From an uncultured delta proteobacterium (GTDB taxonomy: Bacteria; Desulfobacterota; Desulfovibrionia; Desulfovibrionales; Desulfovibrionaceae): a stretch of DNA of 42,470 nt. Location of the stretch: the NCBI GenBank assembly GCA_903835685.1, contig CAILNX010000010.1, positions 1-42,470 on the forward strand. Direction: 5' to 3'. This document shows, piece by piece, positions 1,117-42,310 of this stretch. The number at the start of each line of letters is the position of its first letter. The stretch's first letter is position 1. The translations under genes and the position numbers were made by a program. The notes under the pieces were generated by a model. That model saw only the letters and a program-made list of their open reading frames with translations, did not search any database and was not told the DNA's origin.

Positions 1117-4100
1117 ATGTCACGCGAACTCATCGTCAAGCTCCGGGAAAACCTGCACAAACCCCTGGCTGACGGCCTGCCGGTCATCCTGAGGGACCTG
1201 CGCCGGGCGGCTGAGTTGGCCCGGGACCCGTCCCAGAATCTGGCCGAGCGGGAACGCACGGCCCACAGCCTGGCCACCCTCATCTTCGCCTTTCTGGAAG
1301 AGGAGACCGACAAGGCCTTTGGGCCCGAGGCCCTGCGCCTGCTCTTCACTCTGGGGCGGCCCGGGATCGTGCTCGGGCTCAAACATCTGCGCCGCCGCCG
1401 CCTGCCCGCTCCCGAGGCCGAGGCCCTCATCCTGTCCGGGCCCAAGCCCGAACAACTCCTGTTCTTTAATCACTATTTTCAGGCCCCGGCCGACCTGGAC
1501 CCGGTCCTGGACGCCCGTTTCTGGAAGGCCTTCCTGGCCCTGGCCAGCGAAGACGCCGAACTGATCCTCAATTTTCTGGGCCAGGGCCTGCGCCTGGCCC
1601 TGCCCATCCAGAAGGCCCTGGTGGAAGGGTCGTTCTGGATGTGGATGCGCCGCCTGTTCAAGGGAGGACTGGCCCCGGACCAGGCCGCCTATGTGGCCAA
1701 CAGCCTGGCCGCCCTGGAGTCGGCCGAGGTGGCCGTGCATCTGGCCGGTCTTCTTGACACCAGCAGCGCCCAGGCCGTGCGCGCCCTGCTCACGGCCATG
1801 GGCGCGGCCGGGGCCACCCGGGACCCCCGGATCATCAAGCCCCTGGCCGGTCTGCTGGACCACGCCGATCTGGCCGTGCGCCAGGCCGCCCTGGGCCTCC
1901 TGGTGGGCATGAAGGCCCCGCGCGCGGCCCTGGCCTGGGCCAAGTGCAGCCGCCAGGGAAAGGAGGGTCGCCCGGCCCTGGCCCTGATCGCCCTGAAGAT
2001 GGACAGCGAGGAGTTCCGCGCCCTGCTCTCGGCCCTGCCGGTGGAGGACCGCAAGGAGCTTATCCTGACCCTGTTCTCAGCCCTGTCCCTGTTTTTCCCG
2101 GGCTTCCTGCACCGTTTTCTGGGCAGCGCGGCCTCTGGAGCCAAGGCCGCCGCCGCAGTGGACGCCCTCATGGCCTTTTCCCGGGACCACAAGCCGCCAA
2201 AACTCCTGGGCAAGCTCTTTCGTCCTCCGGTCGGGGCCGAGGCCGCGCCCTGGTTCGAGCCCGTGGCCGGGACCGCGCTGCCCGAGAAGAAGAAGGGGGG
2301 CCTGTTTTGCCGCAAGCCTGCCGAGGGTCCCTCCCTGGCCGAGCAAATGGCCGGGGACGGGGCCACGGGCGTGGAGGCCCCGGGCCAGGTCCTTGCGGAC
2401 AAGTCCTTCAAGGGGCTTTCCCTGCGCGGGGCCGGGCTCAACCGTTGCTGCCTGACCAAGGTGGTGTTCGAGGATTGCGTGTTCACCCAGGTGGATTTGC
2501 GGGGCGCGCGCCTGGACGGGGTGCGCTTCACGAACTGCCGCTTCCAGCATGTGCGTCTGGGCGAGGCCACCCTGGTCGGCTCGACCTTTGAGTCCTGCCG
2601 CTTCGAGCGCTGCGACCTGGTCCGGGCCACCTTCGAGCGGGCGCGCCTGACCGAGTGCGAGTGGTCCGGCTGCATGCTGGACCAGGCCGCCTTTTCGGCC
2701 TCGGCCCTGGATCGCTGCCTGTTCGAGGCCTGCAATTTCTGGGCGGCCAGCTTTCGCGGAGTGGAGGCGTCCGGGGTCAGTTTCGAGTCCACGGACTTCA
2801 GCCAGGCCTTTTTCTCGGCCTGCCGCTTCCAGGGCCTGGGCCTGGCCGAGTGCACTTTTACCGGGGCCAGGGGCCGGGAGATGCTCCTGGCCGGGGTCTC
2901 GGTCCAAGGCTGCTCGTTCGAGGGCGCGCATTTCCTGGGACTGACGACCTTCGATCCTGATTTTCTGGAGGCCGAGGCCCGCACCCTGGACCATATCCTG
3001 GCGGCCAGCGCCGAGCGCTTCGAGCCCCAGGCCGCGCCCCCGGCCTGTTCCGAAGGCCCGGCTCTGTCCCTGGCCGCCCGGGCCGTGGCCGAGTGGATCG
3101 CCCAGCGCGAGGCCCGGGACCGCTGTCGCCTGTCCATGGCCCACAACCGCCGCCGTCTGGCCTGGGCCGGGGCCAAGATGGGGGCCGAGGCCGGACGCTT
3201 TTTGCGCCTCCTGCCCCTGGTGCTGGCGGCCGATCTTTCCGCCACGGCCAAGGGGGCCTTTGCCCACACCCCCTGTCTGGTGGACGGCGGCCCGCCCACC
3301 CACGGCGAGCGCCGCCTGCTGGAGCGCTATTTCCCCGGGGCCAAGCTCACGCCCTTTGAACCCGGCGGGGTGCGGGTGCTGGGGCTCTATTCCATCGGGA
3401 GCTTCGGCTCCATCGCCCAGACCGGGGCCTCGGACATCGACCTCTGGGTCTGCCTGACCCCGGACAGCCCCCGGGGCGAGGACCTGTTCCCCTTCCGGGC
3501 CAAGATGGCCTGGCTGGAGACCTGGGCCGCGTCCACCTTCGGCCTGGAGGTGCATTTCTTCCCCATGGAGCTTTCTAAGGCCCAGACCAATGATTTTGGG
3601 CTCTCCGACGAGGAGGGGGCCGGGTCCTCCCTGGCCCTTTTGCTCAAGGAGGAGTTCTACCGCACCAGCCTGTGCCTGGCCGGGCGAGTGCCGGTCTGGC
3701 TGCTCACGGACCCGGGCGCGCCCGAGGCGGCCTACGCGGCCCAGGTCCTCCGCCTGGAGCGCCTGGCCGGATTCCCGGCCGAAGGGCTCCTGGACTTAGG
3801 GCATCTGGGCCAGATCCCCGAGGATGAGTTCTTCGGGGCCAGCCTGTGGCAGATCGTCAAGGCCCTGAAGAGCCCGTTCAAGTCCGTGATGAAGTTGGCC
3901 CTCATGGAAAAATGCATGGAGCGGAGGGAAGAGGCCGGGACCCTGCTCTGCGACCGGCTGAAAGCCAACCTGCACCGGGGCGTGCGCGACCTCTGGGCCG
4001 TGGACCCCTACGCCCTGCTGTTCAAGGAGGTCAACGACCACTACCAGGCCCGGGGGGACCAGGAAACCATGCTGCTGCTGGGCATGGCCTTCTGCCTCAA

Positions 4101-5022
4101 GGCCGGGGTGGGCGGCCGGGACGACCTCTTTCCGCGCTTGAACCCCCAGGTGGGCAACAGCCTGGGCGAATATTTCTATCCCTCCTCGACCTTCCGGCCC
4201 GGGGACAAGATCAAGACCGCCCAGGCCGACATCCAGACCTTTACCGGCCGCTCCGAGGTGGGCCAGAAGGTGGCCCAGTTCATGGCCGGGGCCTACCAGC
4301 GCATGACCAAGGGCCTGGGCCAGGACGTGGCCGCGCGCATCAGCCGCCAGGACCTGACCAAGCTCGGCCGCCGGGTCATGGCCCATTTCTCCCCCAAGGA
4401 GAACAAGGTCATGCGCATCCCCTTCATGTCCTCGCCCAAGGGCCTGTTCCGCACCCTGTCCTTTTCCGCCGAGGCCGGGCAGTGGGTGGCCAAGGGCCAA
4501 CTGAAGGCCATTGGCGAGCACAAGGGCGACCACAAGCCCGATCACAAGATGGAGGCCGAGGTCATCCGCCGGGAGCCCGGGCCGCTCAAGCTCATGGCCT
4601 GGCTCATCGTGAACGGGATCTACACCCCAGACGTGTACCTCCAGATCGACCCGGCCCTAAGCCCGGTGTCGGCCGAGGACGCGGCCGCGCTCATGAAGGC
4701 CCTGTACGACTTCTTCCCCTGGAAGCAGACCTTTGACCCGGACATGGAGCAGAACCTGGCCCCGGAGCAGGTGGTCAAGGCCTTTTTCGCCCTGAACCTG
4801 CGCGCCCCCCGCCAGGAGACGGCCGTGACCGAGGCGGGCCTGGTCCTGGCCACCAACTGGGGCGAGATGTTCTGCATCCCGGAGGCCAAAAACCCGGCCC
4901 GGGCCGAGCGCGCGCCCTTCCCCTTTCTCAAGGAGAACACCAAGGCCAAGATGGCCGAGGGCATCCTGTGCACGGCCTTTGTCCCCAAGCACGCCAACTG
5001 CCCGCCCATCCATTTCTTCTGA
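1117..5022 (+). CDS. Class I adenylate cyclase fused to HEAT-like and pentapeptide-like repeats
   Basis: A 1301-aa protein. Residues about 180-290 are Ala/Leu-rich helical repeats with HEAT-like phrases such as DPRIIKPLAGLLDHADLAVR. Residues about 425-615 form a long pentapeptide-like right-handed helix, with repeated A-x-L/F and C-x-F units such as STFESCRFERCDLVRATF. From about residue 690 the sequence is that of the class I (enterobacterial CyaA type) adenylate cyclase catalytic region: G-S-F-G-S-I-A-Q at 761-768 and S-D-I-D-L-W with the metal-binding pair D773 and D775. The family makes cAMP from ATP. No signal peptide or membrane segment is seen, so it is probably cytoplasmic. The repeat modules upstream of the catalytic part are unlike the E. 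coli enzyme, which is about 850 aa with its regulatory part C-terminal. Catalytic assignment is firm by motif; the role of the repeats (docking or sensing) is inference. Confidence 0.85.
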   Translation: MSRELIVKLRENLHKPLADGLPVILRDLRRAAELARDPSQNLAERERTAHSLATLIFAFLEEETDKAFGPEALRLLFTLGRPGIVLGLKHLRRRRLPAPEAEALILSGPKPEQLLFFNHYFQAPADLDPVLDARFWKAFLALASEDAELILNFLGQGLRLALPIQKALVEGSFWMWMRRLFKGGLAPDQAAYVANSLAALESAEVAVHLAGLLDTSSAQAVRALLTAMGAAGATRDPRIIKPLAGLLDHADLAVRQAALGLLVGMKAPRAALAWAKCSRQGKEGRPALALIALKMDSEEFRALLSALPVEDRKELILTLFSALSLFFPGFLHRFLGSAASGAKAAAAVDALMAFSRDHKPPKLLGKLFRPPVGAEAAPWFEPVAGTALPEKKKGGLFCRKPAEGPSLAEQMAGDGATGVEAPGQVLADKSFKGLSLRGAGLNRCCLTKVVFEDCVFTQVDLRGARLDGVRFTNCRFQHVRLGEATLVGSTFESCRFERCDLVRATFERARLTECEWSGCMLDQAAFSASALDRCLFEACNFWAASFRGVEASGVSFESTDFSQAFFSACRFQGLGLAECTFTGARGREMLLAGVSVQGCSFEGAHFLGLTTFDPDFLEAEARTLDHILAASAERFEPQAAPPACSEGPALSLAARAVAEWIAQREARDRCRLSMAHNRRRLAWAGAKMGAEAGRFLRLLPLVLAADLSATAKGAFAHTPCLVDGGPPTHGERRLLERYFPGAKLTPFEPGGVRVLGLYSIGSFGSIAQTGASDIDLWVCLTPDSPRGEDLFPFRAKMAWLETWAASTFGLEVHFFPMELSKAQTNDFGLSDEEGAGSSLALLLKEEFYRTSLCLAGRVPVWLLTDPGAPEAAYAAQVLRLERLAGFPAEGLLDLGHLGQIPEDEFFGASLWQIVKALKSPFKSVMKLALMEKCMERREEAGTLLCDRLKANLHRGVRDLWAVDPYALLFKEVNDHYQARGDQETMLLLGMAFCLKAGVGGRDDLFPRLNPQVGNSLGEYFYPSSTFRPGDKIKTAQADIQTFTGRSEVGQKVAQFMAGAYQRMTKGLGQDVAARISRQDLTKLGRRVMAHFSPKENKVMRIPFMSSPKGLFRTLSFSAEAGQWVAKGQLKAIGEHKGDHKPDHKMEAEVIRREPGPLKLMAWLIVNGIYTPDVYLQIDPALSPVSAEDAAALMKALYDFFPWKQTFDPDMEQNLAPEQVVKAFFALNLRAPRQETAVTEAGLVLATNWGEMFCIPEAKNPARAERAPFPFLKENTKAKMAEGILCTAFVPKHANCPPIHFF

Positions 5023-38283: not shown

Positions 38284-39612
38284 ATGCAAGCCATTTGTGA
38301 ATATCCCTGGGAAGCCATCTTCAATTCCATCGCCGATGGGGTCTTCACCGTGGACCTGGACTGGAACATCACTTTTTTCAATGAGGCGGCCAGCCGGATC
38401 ATCGGGATTCCCCGGGAGCGGGCCCTGGGCCGCAAATGCTGGGACGTGTTCCACTCCAGCCTGTGCGACGGGGCCTGCGTGCTGAAAACCTGCATGGCCC
38501 ACGGCGAGCGCCTGGCCGACCGCTCGGTGTACTTCATCCGGCCCGGGGGAGAGAAGGTGGCGGTGTCCATCAGCGCCGCGCCGTTAAAAGACGCCGAGGG
38601 CAACCTCATCGGCGGGGTGGAGACCTTCCGGGACTTGACCGACCTGCACCTCATGCGCCGCAGGCTGGAAAACGCCTATTCCTTCGACGACATCGTGGGC
38701 AAGAGCCAGGCCCTGGCCAAGATTTTCGCCTGGCTCCCCCTGGTAGCCAAGAGCGAGACCTCGGTCCTGCTCCTGGGCGAGTCCGGCACGGGCAAGGAAC
38801 TCTTCGCCCGGGCCGTGCACACCTTAAGCAACCGCAAGGACGGCCCCTACGTGGCCGTGAACTGCGCGGCCCTGCCGGACACCCTCCTGGAGGCCGAGCT
38901 TTTCGGGTACAAGGCCGGGGCCTTTACCGACGCCCGGAAGGACAAGCCCGGTCGCTTCCATCTGGCCCGGGGCGGCACCCTGTTCCTGGACGAGATCGGG
39001 GATGTGCCGCTTCGTCTCCAGGCCAAACTCCTGCGCGTGCTCCAGGAGAAACGCTTCGAACCCCTGGGCGGGGTCAAGAGCGAAACCACGGACGCGCGCA
39101 TCGTGGCCGCCACCAACCGCAATCTGGACGCCCTGGTGGCTGCCGGGGCCTTTCGCCAGGACCTCTTCTACCGCCTGAACGTGGCCACGGTGAAGCTGCC
39201 GCCCTTGCGCGAGCGGGTGGAGGACATCCCCCTTTTGGCCGCGCATTTCATCCAGGAGCAGAACGCCGTGCTGGGCAAGGCCGTGAAGGGCCTAAGCCCC
39301 CAGGTCACGGCCATCCTCATGCGTCATTCCTACCCGGGCAATGTGCGCGAACTCAAAAACATCCTCGAATTCGCCTTCATCCTCTGCCAGGACGGCCCCA
39401 TCCTGCCCGAACATCTGCCCGAACAACTCCGGCCCCAAGGCGCGGAGGCCTCCCTGCCCCTGCGGACGCGCACCCTGGACGAGATCAAGCAGGACGCCGT
39501 GGTCCTGGCCATCCAGCGTAACCAGGGCAAGAAAATGGCCGCCTGCCGGGAGTTGAATATCTCCAAGGACACCATGCGGCGCATTTTAGGGGCAGCTTCG
39601 GGCGGAAAATAA
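38284..39612 (+). CDS. PAS-AAA-Fis sigma-54 activator
   Basis: A 442-aa regulator. PAS at about 5-120 contains C-W-D-V-F-H-S-S-L-C-D-G-A-C-V-L-K-T-C, a Cys-rich loop. The AAA+ domain spans about 135-370: Walker A G-E-S-G-T-G-K-E at 165-172, Walker B G-T-L-F-L-D-E-I-G-D-V. The sigma-54 contact loop reads G-A-F-T-D-A (212-217) with Asp in place of the second Gly. The C-terminal helix-turn-helix is weakly Fis-like (M-A-A-C-R-E-L-N-I-S-K-D-T-M-R-R-I-L). It has no receiver, so it probably senses directly by PAS. It lies immediately upstream of the redox-complex operon, which has a sigma-54 promoter, so that operon is its likely target. It is divergent from the heme-c kinase. Confidence 0.9.
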   Translation: MQAICEYPWEAIFNSIADGVFTVDLDWNITFFNEAASRIIGIPRERALGRKCWDVFHSSLCDGACVLKTCMAHGERLADRSVYFIRPGGEKVAVSISAAPLKDAEGNLIGGVETFRDLTDLHLMRRRLENAYSFDDIVGKSQALAKIFAWLPLVAKSETSVLLLGESGTGKELFARAVHTLSNRKDGPYVAVNCAALPDTLLEAELFGYKAGAFTDARKDKPGRFHLARGGTLFLDEIGDVPLRLQAKLLRVLQEKRFEPLGGVKSETTDARIVAATNRNLDALVAAGAFRQDLFYRLNVATVKLPPLRERVEDIPLLAAHFIQEQNAVLGKAVKGLSPQVTAILMRHSYPGNVRELKNILEFAFILCQDGPILPEHLPEQLRPQGAEASLPLRTRTLDEIKQDAVVLAIQRNQGKKMAACRELNISKDTMRRILGAASGGK

Positions 39613-39624: not shown

Positions 39625-39685
39625 GCCCCAGGACGCGTTTCGCGCCCATAGTGTAGGGGTGGGCATCGGCATATTTCAGTGAATT

Positions 39686-39702
39686 CATGGAGATGCTCCA
39701 TG
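39686..39702 (+). promoter_or_regulatory. Inverted repeat next to the sigma-54 promoter
   Basis: CATGGAG-ATG-CTCCATG, perfect 7-base arms, ending 10 bases before the -24 element. The palindrome TGAATTCA overlaps its left edge. It may be the activator's binding site, although enhancer sites usually lie further upstream. Confidence 0.45.
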
Positions 39703-39711
39703 CCGGCGCTC

Positions 39712-39727
39712 CGGCACGTTTCCTGCC
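39712..39727 (+). promoter_or_regulatory. Sigma-54 promoter of the redox-complex operon
   Basis: CGGCACG-TTTC-CTGC: GG at 39713-39714 and GC at 39725-39726, exactly ten bases apart, with the full GGCACG of the -24 element. The start of transcription would be near 39738, about 110 bases before the first gene of the operon. Confidence 0.75.
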
Positions 39728-39846
39728 CTCATCCCCTTGAGCGACCGGGAAGGGCGTGTTTCTCTTCGTTTTCCTCGGCCAGCGTCACGGAATCCAAGGG
39801 TGGCGGGAAATGCGTCAAACCAAACCATTTACCTGGGGGTGACGGC

Positions 39847-40512
39847 ATGGATGTGCTCGCCTTGGCCGAAGGGCCGCTTTTGTGGATTTCCCTGGGCGTC
39901 TTTGCAGTGGGCCTGGTCACGCGGGCGGCCCTGTTCCTGGTCGAATCGCGGGAGAAGGACAAGATCTTCTGGCAGCACTTCAAATGGAAATGGGTCCTGG
40001 CCACCATGGCCAAATGGCTCGTTCCGGCCAACCGCACCGTGGCCAAGGACCCGGTGTTCTGCGCCCTGGCCTACGCCTTCCACTTCTGTCTCATCGTAGC
40101 GCCCATCTGGTGCCTGCCGCACATCATTTATTGGGAGACCTCCCGATTGGCCTGGTCCTTTACGGCCCTGCCCGACGGCCTGGCCGACTGGATGACCCTG
40201 GCCGTTCTGGCCATCGCCGTGTACCTGCTCATCCGCCGCCTGTCCTCCCCGGACCTGCGCTATCTGTCCACGGCCTCGGACTATGTGTTGCTGGTCATCA
40301 CGGCTCTGCCTTTTCTCACCGCCTATCTCTCGGTGCACCAGAGCCTGGGCACTGGGAACCTGCTGGGCGACAACATGCAGCTCATCCACATCCTGACTGG
40401 TGAGCTCATGCTGGTGGTGGTGCCCTTCACCAAGCTTTCGCATGCGGTGTTGTTCTTTTTCTCCCGGGCGGCCACGGCCGTGGAGTTCGGGCGGCGCGAA
40501 TATTCGATCTGA
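39847..40512 (+). CDS. tmcC: Membrane cytochrome b-like subunit (TmcC/HmcE-like)
   Basis: A 221-aa integral membrane protein of the NarI-like group. ATG 39847 is preceded by GGGGG about 8 bases upstream; the frame is open back to 39679 but that part lacks coding character. Hydrophobic segments: about 9-30, 73-95, 115-140, 145-165 and 190-212. Histidines suited to heme b ligation lie in or near membrane segments: A-F-H-F-C-L-I-V-A-P, L-P-H-I-I-Y, S-V-H-Q-S, Q-L-I-H-I-L-T-G-E-L and K-L-S-H-A-V-L-F-F. The role would be to pass electrons between a periplasmic cytochrome c3 and a cytoplasmic iron-sulfur subunit, possibly through menaquinone. The gene order here is C-B-A, whereas D. vulgaris tmc, as I recall, runs A-B-C-D; HmcE is the closest alternative name. 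Confidence 0.8.
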   Translation: MDVLALAEGPLLWISLGVFAVGLVTRAALFLVESREKDKIFWQHFKWKWVLATMAKWLVPANRTVAKDPVFCALAYAFHFCLIVAPIWCLPHIIYWETSRLAWSFTALPDGLADWMTLAVLAIAVYLLIRRLSSPDLRYLSTASDYVLLVITALPFLTAYLSVHQSLGTGNLLGDNMQLIHILTGELMLVVVPFTKLSHAVLFFFSRAATAVEFGRREYSI

Positions 40513-40544: not shown

Positions 40545-41834
40545 ATGGAGCCAAGCACGAGGTCCAAGGCCATCATGGAGTTTCTGAAACCCAGAGTGGG
40601 CGCGCGGGTCAAATCCTGGCTGGAGATTTGCACCAAATGCGGCCAGTGCGCGGACACCTGTCATTTCTACCTGGCCGCTGACCGGGACCCCAAGATGATC
40701 CCGGCGGCCAAGGTGAAATATTTGTCCGAGATCATCCGCCGCAAGGGCGAGGTGGACGACGAGTTCATCCAAAAAGCCTACGACTGCATCTATCACGAAT
40801 GCAACATGTGCCGCCGGTGCACCCAGTTCTGCCCGTTCGGCATCAACATCGCGGACATGATCGCCCTGACCAGGGCCCTGCTCTTCAGCCAGGGGGTCTG
40901 TCCCGAGGCCCTGCGCAGCGCCATCAAGAACTACCATGAAACCGGCAACCAGATGGGCGTCAGCGAAGAGGATTGGCTGGACACCCTGACCTGGTGCGAG
41001 GAGGAGATGGAGTCCGAGATCGTGGGGCTCAAGATCCCGGTGGACAAGGTCGGGGCGGAAATCATGTACACCATCAACGCCCGCGAGGCCAAGTTCTACC
41101 CCCAGGACATTCAGGAAGTGGCCAAGATCATGCATGTGGCCGGGGCGAGTTGGACCGTGCCCAGCAAAAGGGGCTGGGACGACACCAACTTGTCCATGTT
41201 CGTGGGCGACCTGAAAACCTCGCGTACCCTGGTGGAGAACACCTTTGCCCGGGCCACGGAACTGGGGGCGAAAAAAGTCGCCATCACCGAATGAGGCCAC
41301 GCCTATCGCGCGCTTCGGTTCGAAGCGCCCACCTGGCTCGGCTTCACCCCCAAGCAGGAAGTGATCCACTCCGTGGAACTCTTCCACGACTATCTGGATC
41401 AGGGAATCATCAAGCTCTCCAAGAAGGTCACCGAGCCCACCACCCTCCAAGACCCCTGTAACGTGGTCCGCTCGGGCGGACTGGCGGCCAAGAACCGGCA
41501 TGTGGCCGAGATGCTCTCCGAGGATTTCCGGCCCATGGATAATCAGGGCAACTACAACTACTGCTGCGGCGGGGGCGGCGGGGCCATCCCCATGGGCGGC
41601 GAGATGCGCAAGCAGCGCATGAAGTGCGGCAAGATCAAGGCCGAACAGATACGGGCCACCGGGGCCAAGATCGTGCTGGTGCCCTGCCACAACTGCATCG
41701 ACCAGATCCGGGACTTGAACAAGGAGTACGATTTGGGCATAAAGGCGGTGCATTTCAAGGAAATCATCGCCCACAACATGATCGTGCCCGAGCACATGAT
41801 TCCCAAGGAAGAGGACGAGGAGGAAAAAGCATGA
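40545..41834 (+). CDS. tmcB: HdrD-like iron-sulfur subunit (TmcB/HmcF-like), selenocysteine at codon 250
   Basis: Read through the in-frame TGA at 41292-41294, the product is 429 aa. Two [4Fe-4S] motifs lie at C29-C32-C35-C39 and C86-C89-C92-C96. The C-terminal CCG domain has C305, C340-C341 and C381-x-x-C384. The TGA falls in I-T-E-U-G-H-A-Y-R, where the family has Cys as I recall it (E-C-G-H-A). The frame continues with strong homology directly after it, so this is not a natural end. A hairpin at 41310-41328 fits a bacterial SECIS. Without readthrough the protein would lose its CCG domain. The protein should sit on the cytoplasmic face and exchange electrons with the membrane subunit. It overlaps the cytochrome gene by four bases (ATGA). 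The alternative is a TGC-to-TGA mutation making a pseudogene. Confidence 0.82.
41292..41328 (+). promoter_or_regulatory. Selenocysteine TGA codon and SECIS-like hairpin
   Basis: The TGA at 41292-41294 is followed after 15 bases by GCGCTTC-GGTTC-GAAGCGC (41310-41328): a perfect 7-bp stem with a 5-base loop that opens with GG. The GG is 22 bases past the TGA. Bacterial SECIS elements, as known, are stem-loops directly after UGA with a conserved G at the start of a small apical loop, roughly 16-37 bases away. Confidence 0.75.
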
Positions 41835-42310
41835 ACACCGCGCCGCTCTCCCTGAAACAGGCCGTACTGGTCCTGGCCCTCCTGGTCCTGTGCGCCCCGG
41901 CGGCCCAGGCCCAGCCCGACGAGGTGCTCATCGACAACAGCAAGGTGCTCGGGCCGCTGAAACGCTCGGCCGTGGCCTTCCCGCACGGGACGCACATGGC
42001 CGCCCTGGACTGCCTGAACTGCCACCACCGCATGGAGAAGGGCAAGAACACCCTGGACGCGGGCGCGCTGGAGGAAAAGGCCAAGGGCGTGCGCTGCCAG
42101 GATTGTCACGCGGTCAAGGGCACGCGCATCGCCCCGGACTTAGACCCCACCCAGACCCCGCTCATGCAGGCCTTTCACAAACAGTGCCTGGGCTGCCACC
42201 AGAAGACCGCAGCCTTGGGCAAGAAGACCGGCCCGCGCACCTGCGCCGGATGCCATCCTGTGGCCAAGGCCAAGGCTGCGGCCAAGGCCGAACCCAAGGC
42301 CGGTTCCTGA
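41831..42310 (+). CDS. tmcA: Periplasmic tetraheme cytochrome c3 (TmcA-like)
   Basis: A 159-aa precursor. Signal peptide at about 1-27 (L-V-L-A-L-L-V-L-C-A-P-A-A-Q-A). Four CxxCH heme sites: C-L-N-C-H near 61-65, C-Q-D-C-H near 88-92, C-L-G-C-H near 118-122, and C-A-G-C-H near 137-141. Extra His residues for bis-His ligation are in F-P-H-G-T-H, C-H-H and A-F-H-K-Q-C. The C-terminus is an Ala/Lys tail (V-A-K-A-K-A-A-A-K-A-E-P-K-A). The cytochrome c3 family carries electrons from periplasmic hydrogenases and formate dehydrogenases to membrane complexes. The start codon overlaps the HdrD-like gene's stop (ATGA), so stoichiometric synthesis is likely. The tetraheme count and context fit TmcA; the order C-B-A differs from D. 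vulgaris. Confidence 0.88.
   Translation: MNTAPLSLKQAVLVLALLVLCAPAAQAQPDEVLIDNSKVLGPLKRSAVAFPHGTHMAALDCLNCHHRMEKGKNTLDAGALEEKAKGVRCQDCHAVKGTRIAPDLDPTQTPLMQAFHKQCLGCHQKTAALGKKTGPRTCAGCHPVAKAKAAAKAEPKAGS

Follow-up and report, generated by a model that had tools for sequence, protein, structure and literature searches.

The window analysed here, a stretch of 42,470 nucleotides, carries on its plus strand a gene for an iron-sulfur subunit resembling HdrD, TmcB and HmcF (40545..41834), which would encode 429 amino acids with codon 250 read through. The frame begins with an ATG at 40545 and ends with a TGA at 41832-41834, and the list of open reading frames holds an entry at 40545-41294 of 249 amino acids. 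Codon 250 is an in-frame TGA (41292..41294, plus strand) in the context I-T-E-[TGA]-G-H-A-Y-R, which, judging from the alignment of homologues, would be read as selenocysteine to give the motif T-E-U-G-H-A. An earlier, sequence-only reading had described two frames in the same phase parted by one TGA and had proposed a selenoprotein; we found that this TGA at 41292-41294 is indeed the sole internal stop in the 429 codons.

The gene sits between two others on the same strand. A TmcC/HmcE-like membrane subunit of the nitrate reductase gamma type (39679..40512, plus strand; 194.9 bits to TmcC against a cut-off of 240, and 138 bits to HmcE against 275) stops 32 bases before it, and a TmcA-like class III cytochrome c (41831..42310, plus strand; 84.4 bits to TmcA against a cut-off of 114) follows, its ATG overlapping the stop of the candidate selenoprotein gene in the sequence ATGA. 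The order of the operon is thus TmcC-like, HdrD-like, cytochrome c3. Just upstream of the operon lies a gene for a sigma-54 interacting transcription activator with a PAS domain (38284..39612, plus strand), and that it regulates the operon is a guess. The best NCBIfam match of this activator is PrdR, at 362 bits against a cut-off of 795, a name that we take to belong to a regulator from another selenoprotein system and that may mean nothing here. Elsewhere in the window, at 1117-5022 on the plus strand, class I adenylate cyclase domains and pentapeptide repeats are joined in one frame of 1301 amino acids.

The N-terminal part of the predicted protein is of the ferredoxin type, with two [4Fe-4S] cluster motifs (C29, C32, C35 and C39; C86, C89, C92 and C96), and Pfam places a 4Fe-4S dicluster domain at residues 26-100 (Fer4_8, 40.4 bits, cut-off 27). 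Pfam finds a single CCG match, at residues 300-388 (33.3 bits, cut-off 20.6). The first CCG domain is degenerate, and the second, which lies 3′ of the TGA, is intact, its cysteines being those that had been numbered earlier (C305, C340, C341, C381 and C384). TmcB and HmcF resemble the protein over its whole length, have the same layout of ferredoxin and CCG domains, and are encoded beside similar neighbours, a TmcC-like anchor and a cytochrome c3. All three NCBIfam equivalog models gave scores under their cut-offs: TmcB (NF045724) 421.2 bits against 735, HmcF (NF045711) 440.3 against 750, and DsrK (NF045796) 188.3 against 400. The label HdrD/TmcB-like given by the sequence-only reading thus stands as a statement of kinship with TmcB but falls short of the curated cut-off, and ‘TmcB-like’ is the most that can be said of the predicted product. 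The HmcF of the same genome is a separate gene (G000:C37, 846 bits) with Cys. Among homologous loci inspected by eye as open frames, an anchor-like frame lies upstream in L068, L071, L072 and L074, while no multiheme frame was seen in the examined stretch downstream of L068, L071 and L074; L005, L076 and L077 have, also by eye, both anchor-like and multiheme frames.

In bacterial selenoprotein genes, a stem-loop with a G in its apical loop stands shortly past the TGA, and the window TGA is followed by such a structure. The putative bacterial-type SECIS hairpin (41310..41328, plus strand) begins 15 bases after the TGA and has 7-bp arms at 41310-41316 and 41322-41328 around the apical loop GGTTC. 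It is present just as had been described, and the G and C that bound the loop can pair too, leaving GTT. Taken by itself, the hairpin is only mildly unusual: of 20,000 synonymous recodings, 522 had a stem at least as long; of 3000 recodings, 170 reached an energy as low or lower; and of 200 dinucleotide shuffles each, 38 were equally stable over 49 nt and 13 over 41 nt. The earlier description of a SECIS-like element therefore holds for structure and distance, while on its own the hairpin is weak evidence by these recodings and shuffles. Nor did Rfam bear out a SECIS assignment, since a search across the hairpin reported no SECIS family; the sole match there, to a viral stem-loop with an E-value of 0.64, lay far below the gathering score and was set aside.

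At every TGA locus, a stem follows the TGA at comparable spacing, in several cases with quite different sequence. Scored in the register of the window hairpin, the window-type TGA rows, five in number, make 8, 8, 7, 7 and 7 of the 8 pairs, and at two positions one pair is exchanged for another (G-C to C-G and G-C to A-T); among the 65 distinct Cys rows, one makes 7 pairs and the other 64 make at most 4. Scored in the register of the second group of TGA rows, seven in all, these rows make 5 to 6 of 6 pairs, a single one of the 65 Cys rows makes 5 and none makes 6. Both registers were picked after the TGA rows had been seen and the rows are related, such that these counts describe the loci and are not a test. 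The median local fold energy was -12.5 for the 12 TGA rows vs -5.3 for the 65 Cys rows, with a Mann-Whitney p of 1.4e-7 that is overstated because the rows are related. Four close Cys relatives come near the TGA energies (L069 and L070 at -11.4, L085 and L093 at -10.9). When any register is allowed, the stems overlap, at 5-8 pairs in TGA rows and 2-8 in Cys rows, with 6 or more pairs in 6 of the 65 Cys rows and only 5 in 3 of the 12 TGA rows. The closest copy of all, the Cys paralogue in the same genome, is without the upper stem.

The genome that carries the window, tentatively placed by its gene content in the Desulfovibrionaceae (Desulfobacterota), has the machinery to decode such a codon. 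SelA, SelB, SelD and tRNA-Sec, proposed earlier as something to look for, were all found, and the tRNA-Sec scored 82.7 bits where the gathering score is 47. Three of the four FdhA genes above the model cut-off contain one in-frame TGA, at HQAR[IV]-TGA-HS, and SelD of this genome has one as well, before AAKLP. The hairpins of the FdhA and SelD genes have a G in the apical loop and, as judged by eye, are similarly spaced from the TGA. Across genomes, SelB was present in 10 of the 11 TGA genomes tested (a count that leaves aside the TGA genomes G240, G246, G263 and G323) and in 9 of 12 Cys genomes, and the one tested TGA genome in which it was not found, G258, is 76% complete. Presence of SelB therefore failed to tell TGA genomes from Cys genomes, and its occurrence in 9 of the 12 Cys genomes indicates that most Cys copies are not explained by missing machinery.

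The expectation of a Cys at the TGA position was borne out by every homologue that we aligned. Counting TGA as Cys, residue 250 is Cys in all rows of an alignment of 43, hand-picked from 77 available; Gly251 is likewise present in 43 of 43 rows, His252 in 42, and R255 is nearly invariant. At the codon level, 79 rows of loci that cover at least 250 query residues and include the site have TGC (59), TGT (8) or TGA (12), and removal of two duplicate Cys loci leaves 77 distinct rows, 65 with Cys and 12 with TGA. That the rows have nothing but Cys or TGA at codon 250 shows that the placement of the TGA is not due to chance. Nine additional loci comprise four with Cys and five with TGA (L107-L111), and with the window counted in, TGA occupies codon 250 in at least 18 loci from at least 16 genomes, two of the loci being in the window’s own genome, on contigs C10 (the window gene) and C12. 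Among the matches listed, rows flagged for a TGA have it at this site in 7 of 11 cases in a first homologue search and in 11 of 15 in a second; own-genome rows occur in both, and the number of TGA copies counted here is to be read as a minimum. The flagged TGA falls elsewhere in G106, G108, G024 and G142 of the first set and in G237, G222, G433 and G452 of the second, and these were set aside.

Several individual loci deserve mention. The gene of G237 (L103, G237:C192) has Cys at the UGH site and a TGA in place of the ferredoxin cluster residue Cys32, with only a weak hairpin after it; this TGA may be an error, decay or an odd Sec. The minus strand at L046 (G070:C15) carries a homologue of 28% identity that has TGA at the codon-250 site, in the context TE-TGA-GHEF, and adjoins a Cys-type gene on the opposite strand. 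The second UGH gene of the window’s own genome (L061, G000:C12:13893-15059, minus strand) is 42% identical to the window gene, has TGA at the codon-250 site and, by eye, an anchor-like membrane frame directly upstream, and falls into one group with six TGA copies that come from other genomes in the family.

Alongside its two TGA genes, the genome encodes a Cys copy that is 77% identical to the window gene (L032, G000:C41:1-1104, minus strand); it ends with its contig at residue 368 and has, by eye, an anchor-like frame upstream. That this copy serves as a selenium-independent isoenzyme is a guess. Measured against it, the window gene had a dN/dS of 0.26 upstream of the TGA and 0.28 downstream, the latter over 118 codons since the paralogue stops at its contig end. 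Measured against L068, a 70%-identical gene that also has the TGA, dN/dS was 0.17 before and 0.18 after. In a broken gene, the value past the stop should depart from that before it, and the likeness of the values on the two sides thus favours an intact gene.

These results bear on two ways in which codon 250 might be an ordinary stop. The true codon could be TGC or TGT, misread in sequencing, or the gene could be broken and yield only the 249-residue fragment; a single base separates TGA from the Cys codons, and a stop-free copy of 77% identity in the same genome could relax selection on the window gene. We nonetheless regard this as very improbable, given that TGA stands at codon 250 in at least 17 other loci, that the frame has no other stop in 429 codons and that dN/dS is similar on both sides. 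Sequencing error in particular is made unlikely by L068, which comes from another family and shares both the TGA and the core of the hairpin, as well as by selection after the TGA that resembles selection before it. Still less probable is a pair of polypeptides, the 249-residue N-terminal part and a C-terminal part begun at a downstream GTG or ATG. In-frame starts do exist, and the first, GTG at 41361, has AAGCAGGAA just upstream. However, translation from this GTG would drop residues 250-272, including the invariant G251 and the nearly invariant H252 and R255; the Cys rows inspected for this pass through codon 250 without a stop, and the hairpins of the TGA copies would be left unexplained. 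Altogether, the presence of the sel genes, the restriction of homologues to Cys or TGA and the equal selection on both sides of the TGA support the selenoprotein proposed by the sequence-only reading, and we put the probability that codon 250 is selenocysteine within a full-length product of 40545-41834 at about 0.94. Gene callers that treat TGA as a stop split such genes, and a recurrent selenium-dependent form of a Tmc/Hmc-type subunit is easily overlooked in this way.

Phylogenetic trees, built with the codon-250 site masked, suggest that the site has switched repeatedly between Sec and Cys. A tree of 63 rows, 17 of them Sec, requires at least 7 changes of state, 6 of which are forced by starred branches, and a tree of 65 rows with 12 Sec rows requires 4, of which 3 are forced. 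Rows had been thinned before either tree was built (12 dropped for the 65-row tree and 23 for the 63-row tree), the dropped rows being near copies, fragments, L063 and L103; L063 has a very long branch in the 65-row tree and was omitted from the 63-row tree, in which L110, L062, L107 and L095 also have long branches. In the 63-row tree, the window gene and the Cys paralogue of its own genome are sisters (100/99), and the two sit inside a clade of two Sec and three Cys rows (100/100). Far from this clade, on long branches, the TGA copies L110 and L111 (from G240 and G263) group with L062, a Cys gene of the window’s own genome. A genome in which the Sec gene coexists with a Cys copy of 77% identity, together with repeated swaps across the phylum, amounts to a natural test of what selenium contributes at such a cluster.

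An AF2 model of the full-length protein has a mean pLDDT of 90.8. Its best match among solved structures is EtfD of Mycobacterium smegmatis (PDB 9ojn; Z 26.8 over 382 residues), a distant homologue with 19-20% identity, followed by the LutA-LutB model (9a6l, Z 20.6) and HdrB chains (Z 19-20), among which HdrB of PDB 5odc has the fold in common with the window protein at Z 19.1. The available text of the EtfD study describes a linear [3Fe-4S] cluster, D1, held by Cys503, 538, 581 and 584, and a noncubane [4Fe-4S] cluster, D2, held by Cys637, 672, 673, 709 and 712 and His583, and states that FadF and DgcB are likewise without the D1 cysteines (PMC13083937). By sequence alignment, C/U250-G-H252-A253 of the window protein falls on Cys581-Pro-His583-Cys584 of EtfD, and the counterparts of the D2 ligands are C305, C340, C341, C381, C384 and H252. 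The full set of cysteines that HdrB-type proteins with two noncubane clusters have in both CCG domains was not found, the D1 positions keeping only residue 250; the counterpart of Cys581 is retained as Cys or Sec, and the other three D1 ligands of EtfD are lost. With the D2 ligands kept and the other D1 ligands gone, Sec would be the only conserved residue left of a lost cluster site. The Sec site can thereby be tied to a solved homologue: His252, which corresponds to the histidine ligand of the noncubane cluster in EtfD, comes two residues after Sec250.

These considerations lead us to propose the following model. SelB and tRNA-Sec would decode the TGA at 41292-41294 with the hairpin at 41310-41328 as SECIS, a step strongly supported by the sequence comparisons above. 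To judge from its operon and protein families, the full-length protein would then serve a Tmc/Hmc-like transmembrane complex as its cytoplasmic iron-sulfur subunit, alongside the membrane anchor and a periplasmic cytochrome c3. Electrons would probably travel among cytochrome c3, the membrane subunit, both ferredoxin-type clusters and, in the second CCG domain, the noncubane [4Fe-4S] cluster. Beside that cluster, Sec250 could act as a redox-active selenol that exchanges two electrons with a partner or substrate of the disulfide type, and in the Cys homologues Cys250 would serve as Sec250 does. A redox-active selenol near the noncubane cluster is, in our judgement, the most likely role of Sec250, and we hold to it tentatively, at somewhat less than an even chance.

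Our next choice, which we think unlikely, would have Sec250 or Cys250 bind Fe of the noncubane [4Fe-4S] cluster directly instead of acting as a free redox group. Residue 250 aligns with the D1 ligand Cys581 and lies near the D2 ligand His583, and with the other D1 ligands gone, the remaining cluster could have taken it over; in EtfD, however, D2 is already ligated by five Cys and one His, whose positions are conserved in nearly every row, leaving no obvious free site. It is also doubtful that Cys and Sec are simply interchangeable at this position, with no special chemistry owed to Sec. The changes of state on the tree (at least 7, 6 of them forced by starred branches) and the occurrence of Sec and Cys copies within one genome would fit such interchange, but no third residue occurs at the site in the 43 aligned rows. 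The restriction to Cys or Sec in these rows suggests that sulfur or selenium is needed there; it does not thereby make selenium the better of the two. A composite proposal seems to us improbable: Sec would be a direct Fe-Se ligand or an exchangeable substrate-binding group of a noncubane [4Fe-4S] cluster within a transmembrane respiratory complex, and the last trace of a second cluster, with selenium and sulfur toggled as separate isoenzymes of sulfate reducers.

Selenoproteins of this kind are familiar. Members of the UGH family presumably combine a ferredoxin-type domain with a CCG domain, and the window protein shows the traits of the family, a TGA right before G-H together with ferredoxin-type and CCG domains. 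In the portions of the literature available to us, the UGH Fe-S oxidoreductase-like family (GlpC, COG0247 / PTHR43551) has its Sec directly before Gly-His, as in the window protein. The available text of a 2026 review has the entry ‘Fe-S oxidoreductase-like protein, PTHR43551, UGH’ (PMC13188914); that of a 2022 review includes GlpC selenoproteins (PMC9312934), which a 2006 survey, in the part accessible, reports from Deltaproteobacteria, among them Desulfovibrio vulgaris, Syntrophobacter and Desulfotalea (PMC1794560). An Fe-S oxidoreductase selenoprotein is also listed for a marine deltaproteobacterium in the accessible part of PMC8318568, while the available text of PMC5109826, PMC4287179, PMC8691401 and PMC9012536 names no UGH-type Fe-S oxidoreductase selenoprotein. 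The product of the window gene would therefore be a UGH-type selenoprotein of a kind already in print. A literature search, mostly outside the subscription journals, found no paper on Sec in a Tmc or Hmc subunit, and within the same scope neither the operon setting nor the link between the Sec site and the EtfD cluster ligands was found in print. What we add is this operon setting, the alignment of Sec with Cys581 of EtfD and the count of Sec/Cys switches on the tree, and the place of a known selenoprotein family in a membrane complex, with its repeated swapping to Cys, is worth a closer look. The main text on Desulfobacterium autotrophicum HRM2 describes the selenoproteins HdrD4 and HdrF2 with Cys paralogues (PMC2702500), a pairing of HdrD-type proteins with Sec and with Cys in one genome like that in the window’s genome; that text gives neither the Sec position nor a Tmc-type operon for them. 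The setting of the UGH gene also differs between organisms: according to the available part of the source, which assigns the family neither structure nor function, glpC of Syntrophobacter adjoins hdrA-frhD-frhG-frhA, whereas the window gene adjoins a TmcC-like anchor and a cytochrome c3.
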